Positions 58,941 to 64,000 of a stretch of DNA of 64,000 bases are shown piece after piece. Below the pieces are notes generated by a model. It saw only the letters and a list, made by a program, of their open reading frames with translations, did not search any database and was not told the origin of the DNA. Within the stretch, counting starts at the first letter, position 1. Each line of letters begins with the position of its first letter. Source of the stretch: Heliophilum fasciatum (lineage in GTDB: Bacteria; Bacillota; Desulfitobacteriia; Heliobacteriales; Heliobacteriaceae); assembly GCF_004341395.1 (NCBI RefSeq), contig NZ_SLXT01000015.1, forward strand, positions 1-64,000, read 5' to 3'. Position numbers and translations under genes: made by a program.

Positions 58941-58970
58941 TTGACAGTTTGTGCAACCTTATGGTAAATT
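58941..58970 (+). promoter_or_regulatory. trp operon promoter
   Basis: TTGACA (58941) and TAAATT (58965) are separated by 18 bp. The triplet-repeat leader starts about 7 bases after the -10. Confidence 0.75.
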
Positions 58971-58976
58971 AGCAAC

Positions 58977-59028
58977 GAGTAGAGTAGAGAAGTTGAGTTG
59001 AGTAAGAGTTGAGTCGAGCGGAGAGAAG
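58977..59028 (+). promoter_or_regulatory. TRAP-like (G/U)AG repeat site in the trpE leader
   Basis: GAG begins at 58977, 58982, 58987, 58995, 59000, 59006, 59011, 59016 and 59021, with AAG at 58990 and 59026. Spacing is mostly 5 nt, once 6. TRAP (MtrB) binds about eleven GAG/UAG triplets separated by 2-3 bases, so this fits closely. A terminator follows at 59060. Confidence 0.8.
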
Positions 59029-59059
59029 CGGGTTTTTTACGCGTATTTTTGTACGGGTG

Positions 59060-59093
59060 AAGACTGGTTTACTTCGGTAGACCAGTCTTTTTT
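59060..59093 (+). terminator. trp leader attenuator terminator
   Basis: A 13-bp stem (AAGACTGGTTTAC with GTAGACCAGTCTT, one G-U) is capped by TTCG and followed by six T residues, 50 bases before trpE. Placed after the repeat site, it is the expected attenuator. Confidence 0.88.
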
Positions 59094-59143
59094 GCGCACT
59101 TTTTTACCTTGATTTGCCTATAGAGAGAGGATGTGGCTTTCTG

Positions 59144-60625
59144 GTGGCGCAAGCGATGTCATTGGCGCTTTTTCAAGAACTAAGCCAAAAGTACCGGTTT
59201 GTTCCGGTGGATATTTCCTTCCATGCTGATCTGGAAACGCCGATCACTTTGTTCCGCAAGCTTGTTGGCGATGGATTGGGTTACCTGTTGGAAAGTGTGG
59301 AGCGGGGCACCGTCATTGGCCGCTATTCTTTCATTGGCAGTGATCCCCTCGATTTTTTCCGTTGTCCGGCGACCGCCGAGGCAGAAGGGGCAGCGAAGGA
59401 AGGAACTGCGAAGGAAGGTAGCGATCCTCTGAGCAAGGTGAAACGCTGGATCGCTGATCAGCAGGTGGCGCCGTTGCCTACGGATGCGGGATTGCCGCCT
59501 TTTTACGGCGGTGGCGTTGGCTATTTTGGCTATGATCTCACGCGCCATTATGAGCGGTTACCGGAACGGGCCGCTGATGACCGGCAATTGCCGGAGGCCT
59601 CGCTGATGATCACGCGGGATACGTTGATCATCGATCATCTACGCCATCGCTGCACCTTGGTGCACCTGGCGGAAGCCGGTGACGAGCAGGCCTACGGCCG
59701 AGCACAAGACCACTTGATGACGACGCTGGAGCGCTTGCGAGATGCCGCGCCGCCAATGGAGCAAAGCGCCAATGCGATCAAGGAACCGCTGGTGATGACA
59801 TCGACCTTTGATCAGGATGCTTTTTGCCGGGCCGTGGAAAAATGCCAAGACTATATCGCTGCCGGTGATATTTTTCAGGTTGTCTTGTCGCAACGGTTTT
59901 CTATGCCCCTTCGTGCTCATCCACTGAATGTGTACCGGGCACTGCGTTCGCTTAATCCGTCGCCCTATCTTTTTTACCTATGTTTGCCTGAGGTAACGCT
60001 GGCCGGATCGTCGCCGGAGCTGCTGGTCCGGGTAGCAGGGGATCACGTGGAAACGCACCCGATCGCCGGAACACGGCGGCGCGGCAAAAATGATGAAGAA
60101 GATGCCCGGTTGGCAGCGGATCTGCTGGCTGATGAAAAAGAGCGGGCGGAACATTTGATGCTCGTTGATCTGGGACGTAACGATATCGGCCGGGTAGCGC
60201 AGGCCGGCACGGTGAAAGTGGAACGGTTTATGGAAGTGGAGAATTACTCGCATGTGATGCACTTGGTCAGCCAAGTTACCGGGAAACTGGCGCCGGAGAT
60301 GGATGCGTTAGATGCGCTGCGCTGTGTGATGCCGGCCGGTACCTTAAGCGGTGCGCCGAAAATCCGGGCGATGGAGATCATTGAGGAACTGGAACCGGTC
60401 CGGCGTGGCCCCTATGGCGGCGCCGTCGGCTATCTCGGTTATGACGGCACGATGGATACTTGTATTGCCATTCGCACGGTGGTGATGCATCGGGGCCGGG
60501 CGGAGATTCAAGTGGGCGCCGGGATCGTGGCCGATTCGGTGCCGGAAGCTGAATATGAGGAAACGATGAATAAAGCGCGGGCGATGTTTGAGGCGATGCG
60601 GCAGGCCGAGGAGGTATGGGCGTGA
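59144..60625 (+). CDS. trpE: Anthranilate synthase component I
   Basis: TrpE makes anthranilate from chorismate, using ammonia from TrpG. The 494-residue protein has the N-terminal Trp-feedback region ([18 protein letters not shown] near 55) and the chorismate-binding domain with [32 protein letters not shown] and [13 protein letters not shown]. Starts at 59114, 59144 and 59156 are in frame; 59144 (GTG) lies closest after AGAGAGG, 13 bases away. The gene follows the TRAP-like leader and attenuator, and its end overlaps trpG by 4 bases. Confidence 0.93.
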
Positions 60626-61203
60626 TTTTGATGATCGACAATTATGACTCCTTTACCTATAACTTGGTGCAGTATTTCCGGGAGTTAGGACAGACACTGC
60701 ATGTAGTGCGTAATGATGCGGTGACTGTCGCTGATGTGGAAAAAATAGCACCTGATTATCTGGTCATTTCGCCGGGGCCTTGCGCACCGGCGCAAGCGGG
60801 CATGTCGATGCCATTAATCGAAGCTTTTGCCGGCACGATCCCCATTCTCGGTGTGTGCCTCGGTCACCAGTCGATCGCCCAGGTCTTTGGCGGTCAGGTG
60901 GTCCGGGCACCGCGTTTGATGCACGGCAAGGTGTCGCCGGTCGAGCATGACGGGCAAACGATGTATGCGGGCTTAAGTAATCCTTTTACGGCGACACGCT
61001 ATCACTCACTGTGCGTACCGGAGGCGACACTGCCTGATTGCCTGGAGGTTTCGGCGCGGACGGCCGAAGGAGAAGTGATGGGACTGCGCCATCGCACCTT
61101 AGCCGTTGAAGGCGTGCAGTTTCATCCGGAGTCGATTCTAACAGTGGAAGGCAAGCAGTTGCTGCATAATTTTTTGAGTTATTATGGGCCGATGCATCAG
61201 TAG
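60622..61203 (+). CDS. trpG: Anthranilate synthase component II, glutamine amidotransferase
   Basis: The 193-residue class I amidotransferase has the nucleophile Cys in GVCLGHQS near residue 80 and His in GVQFHPES near 170. It supplies ammonia to TrpE. The GTG at 60622 is 7 bases after GAGGAGG and overlaps the trpE stop (GTGA); the ATG at 60616 is too close to that site. The sequence may also serve PabB for folate synthesis. Confidence 0.93.
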
Positions 61204-61245: not shown

Positions 61246-61269
61246 GAGGATGAGGTGAGTCGAGTTGAG
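61246..61269 (+). promoter_or_regulatory. TRAP-like GAG repeats over the trpD ribosome site
   Basis: GAG begins at 61246, 61252, 61257, 61262 and 61267, spaced 5-6 nt, and this set contains the ribosome site (GATGAGGTGAG, 61249-61259) and the TTG start at 61265. Bound protein would block translation of trpD, as known for TRAP at some trp genes. Confidence 0.65.
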
Positions 61270-62347
61270 TAAGGGTATGGAAATTGCACGGGAAAGTTTG
61301 AATACCTTGTTGGCCGGTGAACGTCTCGGCGAAGAACGGGCGCTGGCCGTCATGGATGCGGTGATGGACGGCAATGTGCCGACATCGCAACTGGCAGGCA
61401 TCTTGATCGCACTGCGCTTGCTCGGTGAAGGCGAAGAGGAAATTGCCGGCCTGGCGCGGGCCATGCGCCGCCGAGTTGAACGGGAACTGCAACCCTATCG
61501 AACGAAGGGCTTTGATGTGCTGCAAGATCGAGTCATCGACACCTGCGGTACCGGCGGTGATTGTGCCGGAACGTTTAACATCTCCACGGCGGCAGCGTTG
61601 ATCGTCGCGGCGGCCGGTGTGCCTGTCGCCAAGCATGGCAACCGGGCCGTATCGGGCAAAGCCGGTTCAGCCGATGTGCTGGAAGCGCTGGGGATTGCTG
61701 TCGATGTGTCACCGGCCCTATCGTTTCGCTGTTTAACGGAAACAGGTTTTGGCTTTTTCTTTGCACCGCGCTGTCACCGGGCCATGGCCCATGCGGCGCC
61801 GGCACGGCGGGAATTGGGCGTGCCGACAGTGTTTAATTTGCTGGGGCCACTGACCAATCCGGCCGGTGCGCGCCGGCAACTGCTGGGCATCAACCGCAAT
61901 GCCCGTGTGGGGCTGATGGCGCGGGTACTGGCCCGTCTGGGTGTGCAACATGCCTGGGTTGTTCACGGGCTTGATGGCCTTGATGAGATCAGTTTGACGG
62001 GACCGACGGAAGTGGCCCGTTTGAAAAACGGTGTTGTCGAAGAGACCATCATTGATCCCCACGACTTTGGTTTCTCCTATTGTCGACCGGAAGATTTGCA
62101 GGGCGGAGACAAAGAGCATAATGCCGCCATTGTGCAGTCGGTACTGCGTGGTGTGCCGGGACCGGCCCATGATATTGTGGTGCTTAATGCCGCGGCCGCC
62201 CTTTGTGTAGCTGAGCGTGTCAACGATTTGTCGGAAGGCATCCGATTGGCCCAGGCGATGATTACCGGCGGAGCGGCGAGCCGTCTCTTGGCACGGTTGC
62301 AGCGTTTGACCAACGAACAAACGTTGGAAAATCAAGCGGTAGGATAG
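61265..62347 (+). CDS. trpD: Anthranilate phosphoribosyltransferase
   Basis: TrpD joins anthranilate to PRPP. The 360-residue protein has the N-terminal helical part and the PRPP-binding motif DTCGTGGDCAGTFNIST near residue 97, then KHGNRAVSGKAGSADVLEALG near 125 and FNLLGPLTNPAG near 190. The TTG start at 61265 follows GATGAGGTGAG. GAG repeats overlap this start region and may control its translation. It is 61 bases after trpG. Confidence 0.93.
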   Translation: MSKGMEIARESLNTLLAGERLGEERALAVMDAVMDGNVPTSQLAGILIALRLLGEGEEEIAGLARAMRRRVERELQPYRTKGFDVLQDRVIDTCGTGGDCAGTFNISTAAALIVAAAGVPVAKHGNRAVSGKAGSADVLEALGIAVDVSPALSFRCLTETGFGFFFAPRCHRAMAHAAPARRELGVPTVFNLLGPLTNPAGARRQLLGINRNARVGLMARVLARLGVQHAWVVHGLDGLDEISLTGPTEVARLKNGVVEETIIDPHDFGFSYCRPEDLQGGDKEHNAAIVQSVLRGVPGPAHDIVVLNAAAALCVAERVNDLSEGIRLAQAMITGGAASRLLARLQRLTNEQTLENQAVG

Positions 62348-62497: not shown

Positions 62498-63346
62498 GTG
62501 AGCAAAATGGGGCGAAATCAAGAGTACCGACCGGAAGGCTTTTTGGCGACCATGGCGGAACTGCAGGCGGAGCGAGTAAAAAAAGCGCAAGCGGAAGTGG
62601 CGCTGGAGCAGTATCAGGCGTTAGCCCAGGCTACGCCACCTGCCCTTGACTTTGCGCAGGCGCTAACGAGGACGGCCGATGGGCCCTTACGGGTGATTGC
62701 TGAAGTAAAACGCTCATCACCTTCCAAGGGAGCCTTGGCGCCGGTCGCCGACGCCCGGGCGCTAGCGGCGGCTTATATGCAAGGCGGTGCGGCCGCTGTA
62801 TCCATATTGACGGAAGAAGCCTATTTTCATGGCGCTTTGGCCGATCTGCAGCAAGTGCGGCCGGCCTTGGCCATTCCCATGTTACGTAAAGATTTTTTGA
62901 TTGATCCTTATCAGGTTTGGGAGGCTCGTGCCTATGGCGCTGATGCGGTGCTGCTGATTGCTGCTTTGCTCGGGCCGGCCAAACTGACTGAGATGACCGG
63001 GGTGGTCTTGGCGGCAGGAATGCAGCCGCTGATTGAACTCCATGCACCGGCCGAAGTGGCTTGGGCGGAAGCGGCGATTGAAGTTAATGCGAAGGGCTAT
63101 GGTGACCGGCGGCCGGTTGTCGGCGTCAATGCGCGGAACCTCATGACCTTACAGGTCGAACCGGCAAAAGCGTGGGAATTGCTTCGTGCGCTGCCGAACC
63201 ATTGGATTCGCGTGGCTGAAAGCGGTTTGCGCACGCGACAGGACTTGATGGCGGCACGGGAAGCCGGTGCCGATGCCGCTTTGATCGGTGAAGCGCTCGT
63301 TACGTCGGGAGAACCGAGCCGGGCAATTGCGGAACTGATTCGTTGA
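62498..63346 (+). CDS. trpC: Indole-3-glycerol phosphate synthase
   Basis: TrpC makes indole-3-glycerol phosphate. The 282-residue TIM barrel has VIAEVKRSSPSKG near residue 67 (catalytic Lys and Glu region), MLRKDFLIDPYQVWEARAYGADAVLLI near 128, ELHAPAEV near 180 and VGVNARNL near 205. A GTG at 62498 follows AGGAGG by 7 bases. Length is normal. trpF follows. Confidence 0.94.
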   Translation: MSKMGRNQEYRPEGFLATMAELQAERVKKAQAEVALEQYQALAQATPPALDFAQALTRTADGPLRVIAEVKRSSPSKGALAPVADARALAAAYMQGGAAAVSILTEEAYFHGALADLQQVRPALAIPMLRKDFLIDPYQVWEARAYGADAVLLIAALLGPAKLTEMTGVVLAAGMQPLIELHAPAEVAWAEAAIEVNAKGYGDRRPVVGVNARNLMTLQVEPAKAWELLRALPNHWIRVAESGLRTRQDLMAAREAGADAALIGEALVTSGEPSRAIAELIR

Positions 63347-63382
63347 TGCATACAGTTGATGCATACAGAAAGGATGAAAGCG

Positions 63383-64000
63383 ATGCGAGGCCGGCCCCGT
63401 GTAAAAATCTGTGGAATTCGTTCGCTCGTTGATGCCGAGTTGGCCATTAAAGCCGGTGCCCAGGCGATCGCCTTTAATTTTGTACCTACCTCGAAGCGCT
63501 ACATTCACCCGGAGAAGGCGCGGGAAATTATTCAGGTGCTGCCGCCTTATATCTCGGTGGCTGGTGTTTTTGCTGATGAGCCCCGGTACAGCGTGGAAGA
63601 AATCGTTTCGTTTTGCCGGTTAGAAGTGTTACAGTTTCATGGCCATGAAGACCCGGAATACTGCCGGCGCTGGTCCTATCGGATCATCAAAGCCTTTCGC
63701 CTCCGCGCCGAAGGAGCAACAACGGTGTCGGTCGGTGCCTTGGCCAGTTGGGAAGAATTGCTGCGGGAAGCCGGGCGCTATGCAGAAGTGTGTGCTTTTT
63801 TGCTCGATACGGATGTGCCGGGGTTAGGTGGTGCCGGACGTACCTTTGACTGGTCCCTGGTGCAAGGCGATTTGCCGAAACCAGTGATCGTCGGCGGCGG
63901 TTTGACGCCTGATAATGTCGGGGCGGCGATTATGGCGCTGCGGCCCTATGCCGTCGATGTGGCATCGGGCGTGGAAACAAACGGGCAAAAAGACGGTGCC
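63383..64000 (+). CDS. trpF: Phosphoribosylanthranilate isomerase, cut by the window end
   Basis: TrpF isomerises phosphoribosylanthranilate. The visible 206 residues begin MRGRPRVKICGIRS and continue with IAFNFVPTSKRYI near residue 31 and VLQFHGHEDPEYC near 80. The phosphate-binding end GGGLTPDNVG and VDVASGVETNGQKD is reached before the window ends, so only a short tail is missing. The ATG at 63383 is 9 bases after AAAGG; one at 63374 is also in frame. trpB and trpA probably follow. Confidence 0.92.
   Translation, partial: MRGRPRVKICGIRSLVDAELAIKAGAQAIAFNFVPTSKRYIHPEKAREIIQVLPPYISVAGVFADEPRYSVEEIVSFCRLEVLQFHGHEDPEYCRRWSYRIIKAFRLRAEGATTVSVGALASWEELLREAGRYAEVCAFLLDTDVPGLGGAGRTFDWSLVQGDLPKPVIVGGGLTPDNVGAAIMALRPYAVDVASGVETNGQKDGA

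Follow-up and report, generated by a model that had tools for sequence, protein, structure and literature searches.

A predicted TRAP-controlled attenuator and further candidate TRAP sites at tryptophan genes of Heliophilum fasciatum and other heliobacteria

How is the tryptophan operon of Heliophilum fasciatum controlled, and is the GAG-rich leader in front of it a target of TRAP, the tryptophan-activated MtrB ring known from Bacillus subtilis? We addressed this question in a 64,000-nucleotide stretch of DNA (the window), in which all features described below lie on the forward strand. The end of the window holds trpE, encoding anthranilate synthase component I (59114-60625; TIGR00564, 571 bits against a cut-off of 518), trpG, encoding the glutamine amidotransferase of anthranilate synthase (60616-61203), trpD, encoding anthranilate phosphoribosyltransferase from a TTG start (61265-62347), trpC, encoding indole-3-glycerol phosphate synthase (62498-63346), and trpF (63356-64000), which continues past the window end. 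Beyond trpF the contig carries trpB, trpA, DAHP synthase, pheA, tyrA and aroA-like genes, named by reading their sequences, and the operon order 3′ of the leader is trpEGDCFBA. Translation of trpE more likely starts at GTG 59144 than at TTG 59114, and a Shine-Dalgarno-like AGAGAGAGG occupies 59122-59130.

The predicted TRAP-binding array spans 58977-59028. Re-reading the sequence recovered all nine GAG triplets reported in the first-pass annotation, which start at 58977, 58982, 58987, 58995, 59000, 59006, 59011, 59016 and 59021, as well as the AAG triplets that it placed at 58990 and 59026. The same annotation described the triplets as separated by two or three bases; this holds for most of the array and fails at a single 5-nt gap between the triplets at 58987 and 58995. 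In register, the spacers measure 2, 2, 5, 2, 3, 2, 2 and 2 nt, followed by 2 nt before AAG 59026, so that the array ends on AAG, not GAG. AAG 58990 is probably not a repeat because it abuts GAG 58987 with no spacer, and the 5-nt gap would leave about one TRAP position empty, which would give 11 register positions, 10 of them filled by NAG. With a triplet-spacing score of 8.25, the array is the maximum of the window on both strands (next 4.85, then 3.2), and in 2000 dinucleotide shuffles of the segment the best score averaged 2.4 and never exceeded 7.15. About 9-11 NAG triplets, mostly 2-3 nt apart, precede a tryptophan gene here, as they do in a TRAP attenuator.

The protein that this reading presupposes is encoded in the genome. 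A single mtrB gene (G000:C1:170918-171115) lies between genes that read as dnaE-like and accD-like, and its product matches Pfam TrpBP (E = 2.6e-39) and scores 137 bits with the NCBIfam MtrB equivalog, above the curated cut-off of 117. The protein is close to solved TRAP structures; across 11 aligned TRAPs, the Lys/Arg and Thr/His residues that we take, from those structures, to be the RNA and tryptophan contacts are invariant or nearly so. A TRAP gene is present in all nine Heliobacteriaceae genomes searched. A search for anti-TRAP (rtpA, PF15777) gave no match in the H. fasciatum genome and none above the cut-off in the nine family genomes, and three sub-threshold matches in relatives fall inside open frames of 379-394 aa.

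Upstream of the array lies a sigma-70-type promoter that had been overlooked earlier (58941-58970; TTGACA, an 18-nt spacer and TAAATT, with an extended -10 TG), so transcription should start near the first GAG, at about 58975-58978. By eye, most leaders of the family have TTGACA, a 17-nt spacer and TAxxxT, ~6 nt before the first GAG.

Among relatives, the array follows the presence and absence of TRAP, as is expected of a TRAP attenuator. The first-pass annotation had made its reading depend on conservation of the repeat before trpE, and both array and terminator recur there in 9/9 family genomes, each leader having 8-12 GAG/UAG triplets, a spacer and a related terminator. TRAP is encoded in 18 of the 83 genomes of the class; in the TRAP-positive genomes outside the family, arrays precede anthranilate synthase genes, and none of ten TRAP-negative trp loci, each confirmed through the downstream trpD, contains an array scoring 4.5 or more. 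T-boxes above the Rfam threshold occur at four of these ten loci, two of the four in tandem, and their presence at trp operons of TRAP-negative relatives speaks for a different reading of the H. fasciatum leader, as a T-box or a ribosome-mediated (leader peptide) attenuator in which the GAG array would be incidental. We consider this extremely improbable: Rfam matched no family in the window, including T-box RF00230 upstream of trpE, or in the scanned TRAP-positive loci; the predicted transcript start at the array would leave no room for a T-box; and arrays co-occur with TRAP across genomes. The T-box-bearing loci represent the same operon in the same class, and differ in that a T-box senses uncharged tRNA and no TRAP gene is present.

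That TRAP genes occur in some Clostridia had been noted previously. The first-pass annotation's statement that TRAP-controlled trp operons are known mostly from Bacilli and a few Clostridia proved too narrow: 446 stretches encode TRAP relatives, and the best 80 of the 446 are almost all clostridial, including Moorella, Thermincola, Pelotomaculum, Desulfotomaculum relatives and Syntrophomonadaceae. In one TRAP-positive relative outside the family (L036, ~1328-1400), the trpE array is split by the hairpin CCACC-GUUG-GGUGG. Elsewhere, on the reverse strand of L050 (360-490 of the reverse complement), a stretch of ~20 triplets rich in GAGTTA/TAGAGT lies upstream of the trp leader of genome G009 and outside the regular TRAP array of that genome.

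Between the array and trpE lies a terminator, as in a TRAP attenuator. The 13-bp, UUCG-capped stem described previously was borne out (59060-59072 paired with 59077-59089, followed by TTTT; whole element with its T run, 59060-59095), and in an alignment of seven leaders three pairs of its helix are changed on both sides and 98.8% of cells are paired. Folding the leader, as the annotation had suggested, yielded an alternative, mutually exclusive structure: the terminator probability is 0.32 in the free leader and 0.98 when the array is masked. The predicted antiterminator (59019-59076) sets the last repeats and a spacer hairpin against the 5′ arm and loop of the terminator, and in its favoured form CGGAG (59019-59023) pairs with CUUCG (59072-59076) and AAGC (59026-59029) with GGUU, in addition to the spacer hairpin. 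The pairing GAGTAA:TTACTT, suggested in the first-pass annotation as the antiterminator, can form, but we dropped it: the best fold lacks it and instead joins the last repeats and the spacer to the 5′ arm of the terminator. As computed, the antiterminator shares sequence with the array and with the terminator, again as in a TRAP attenuator, and we consider its exact form likely to be as predicted. The tightness of control is uncertain because the unmasked leader still forms the terminator at the probability given above and folding kinetics are ignored in the calculation.

Array-dependent folding is common to the leaders of the relatives. When transcripts truncated at the terminator loop were folded, the last repeats and the spacer paired with the 5′ arm of the terminator in 9/9 heliobacterial leaders, and in the other eight TRAP-positive leaders GAUGAG-type repeats folded against CUCAUUU-type terminator arms, so that each of the 17 folded leaders has a predicted antiterminator that draws on the array. 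These structures lose ~10-28 kcal/mol of stability when the array is masked. The 3′ end of the array pairs with its own terminator arm at -11.9 kcal/mol, with arms from the same clade at -11.5 kcal/mol and with arms from other clades at -8.6 kcal/mol; by these predicted energies, the two elements are co-adapted inside clades.

These results bear on a rival reading in which array-bound TRAP would work chiefly as a roadblock, or terminate transcription directly, at the U-rich stretch, with the RNA switch secondary. B. subtilis TRAP terminates transcription in vivo without the attenuator hairpin (McAdams and Gollnick; PMC3913778), and the spacer of the trpE leader is U-rich; however, the terminator is strong, canonical and kept with compensatory changes, and every leader folded has an alternative pairing that depends on the array, whereas a pure roadblock would need none. 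We regard such a roadblock as unlikely, and favor a B. subtilis-like switch with a stronger terminator because of the computed exclusivity of the folds, the clade-matched pairing and the compensatory changes in the terminator.

Together, these features make it very probable that transcription of trpEGDCFBA is controlled by a TRAP attenuator at 58941-59095. When tryptophan is low, TRAP would be inactive, the last repeats and spacer would bind the terminator 5′ arm, and polymerase would read through into the operon. When tryptophan is ample, the TRAP ring would wrap the 5′-terminal GAG array and take its repeats out of antiterminator pairing, upon which the terminator would fold and transcription would end before trpE.

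The B. subtilis trp attenuator likewise employs a Trp-activated MtrB ring and ~11 NAG triplets 2-3 nt apart, with an antiterminator that overlaps the array and a terminator that precedes trpE. The B. subtilis trp leader has a 5′ stem-loop, whereas in H. fasciatum no such stem-loop would precede the array, which would begin at or near the first transcribed base; further, the antiterminator is predicted here from the last repeats alone plus a local spacer hairpin, and trpG lies inside the trp operon. A TRAP-induced hairpin that sequesters the trpE Shine-Dalgarno sequence is a B. subtilis feature and not a general one, and in a check for such a hairpin the trpE Shine-Dalgarno sequence folded mostly paired both with the array free and with it masked. 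B. subtilis has a weak intrinsic terminator at this place (PMC3913778), where H. fasciatum has a strong 13-bp UUCG stem. In Bacillus halodurans, TRAP is a 12-mer ring with 19 NAG triplets (PMC3184956); that species resembles the heliobacteria in combining TRAP with a NAG array before the trp operon and in having no anti-TRAP (PMC11255114), and the heliobacterial array is shorter.

Pattern searches of the 3.14-Mb genome for (GAGNN)3GAG, which is expected by chance to match 0.06-0.6 times, returned only three loci: the trpE leader, the start of trpD, and the leader of a TrpP-ECF operon. The trpD site, also overlooked earlier, consists of five GAG triplets that overlap the trpD ribosome-binding site and its start codon (61246-61269). 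It is kept in 9/9 heliobacteria, as GAGGTGAGNNGAGATGAG in relatives and AAGGTGAG in one, and is present with different spacing in most other TRAP-positive relatives. The trpD-start score is high in 16/17 TRAP-positive loci versus 0/10 TRAP-negative loci (p = 2e-5, a nominal value, the loci being related).

Whether this cluster is a TRAP target or merely a GAG-rich Shine-Dalgarno region is more evenly balanced than the case of the trpE leader. GAGGUGAG at trpD is itself Shine-Dalgarno-like, ATGAG is a frequent gene start, and a comparable cluster with no obvious tie to tryptophan stands at the start of mfd in two genomes. Further, the cluster has 4-6 repeats in heliobacteria, under the seven that B. 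subtilis TRAP is reported to need for stable binding (PMC4027176). Set against this are the retention of the cluster throughout the heliobacteria, its division between TRAP-positive and TRAP-negative loci, uncorrected for relatedness, and its place among just three four-GAG sites in the H. fasciatum genome. We therefore give the Shine-Dalgarno reading somewhat less than even weight and lean toward a TRAP target, a preference kept modest because the repeats are fewer than the seven quoted for B. subtilis TRAP. Acting through this shorter cluster over the ribosome-binding site, TRAP would probably repress trpD translation. We found no earlier report of a TRAP-like site at trpD in the literature.

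The third locus is the leader of an operon encoding TrpP (PF17099) and an ECF ATPase, where a split array of 4-5 and 5-7 repeats is followed by a terminator; control of transcription is therefore predicted, unlike at B. subtilis trpP, and TRAP probably also attenuates this tryptophan ECF transporter operon. The leader (L010:1435-1620; G000:C3, off the window) is kept in six heliobacterial genomes, and a hairpin lies just 5′ of the array in some of them. In three Heliomicrobium genomes (L108, L191 and L192; GAGGAGAGGAGAGACGAG), a GAG cluster covers the start of a TrpB-like gene. The mfd cluster, four GAG triplets directly 5′ of the start codon in two Heliomicrobium genomes (L103:1462 and L104:1465), is perhaps a Shine-Dalgarno region only. 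The remaining four-GAG matches in relatives, three singletons without a trp link, were rejected.

Known TRAP targets in B. subtilis are trpE, trpG, trpP and ycbK (PMC11255114; PMC4347634). At trpG, trpP and ycbK, as at the heliobacterial trpD site, NAG repeats overlap the translation start and direct block of the ribosome is predicted; the B. subtilis sites have ~9 repeats, whereas those at trpD, and at the TrpB-like gene in Heliomicrobium, have 4-6.

From sequence, we infer TRAP binding, termination, a response to tryptophan and repression of trpD, which would place a known TRAP mechanism in a lineage that has been little described and give it a larger predicted regulon. More tentatively, the clostridial TRAP circuit may be layered in a manner not described for Bacillus, a proposal that we put at a little below an even chance: attenuation through a 5′-terminal array at trpE, direct repression of translation through short sites of 4-6 repeats at trpD, a gene internal to the operon, and, in Heliomicrobium, at the TrpB-like gene, and split-array attenuation of TrpP-ECF, all without anti-TRAP. 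In the literature open without subscription we found no report of TRAP or trp control in heliobacteria, and an earlier mention is possible.

The additional sites at trpD, trpP and the TrpB-like gene are the more interesting part of this predicted regulon, more so than the trpE attenuator. With its 4-6 repeats, trpD offers a natural test of the minimum repeat number for TRAP, and trpP a natural test of whether TRAP can use a split array. The alternation of TRAP and T-box within one class points to replacement of the regulator at the same operon. TRAP control, studied almost exclusively in Bacillus, would extend to the phototrophic heliobacteria, and would be family-wide there.
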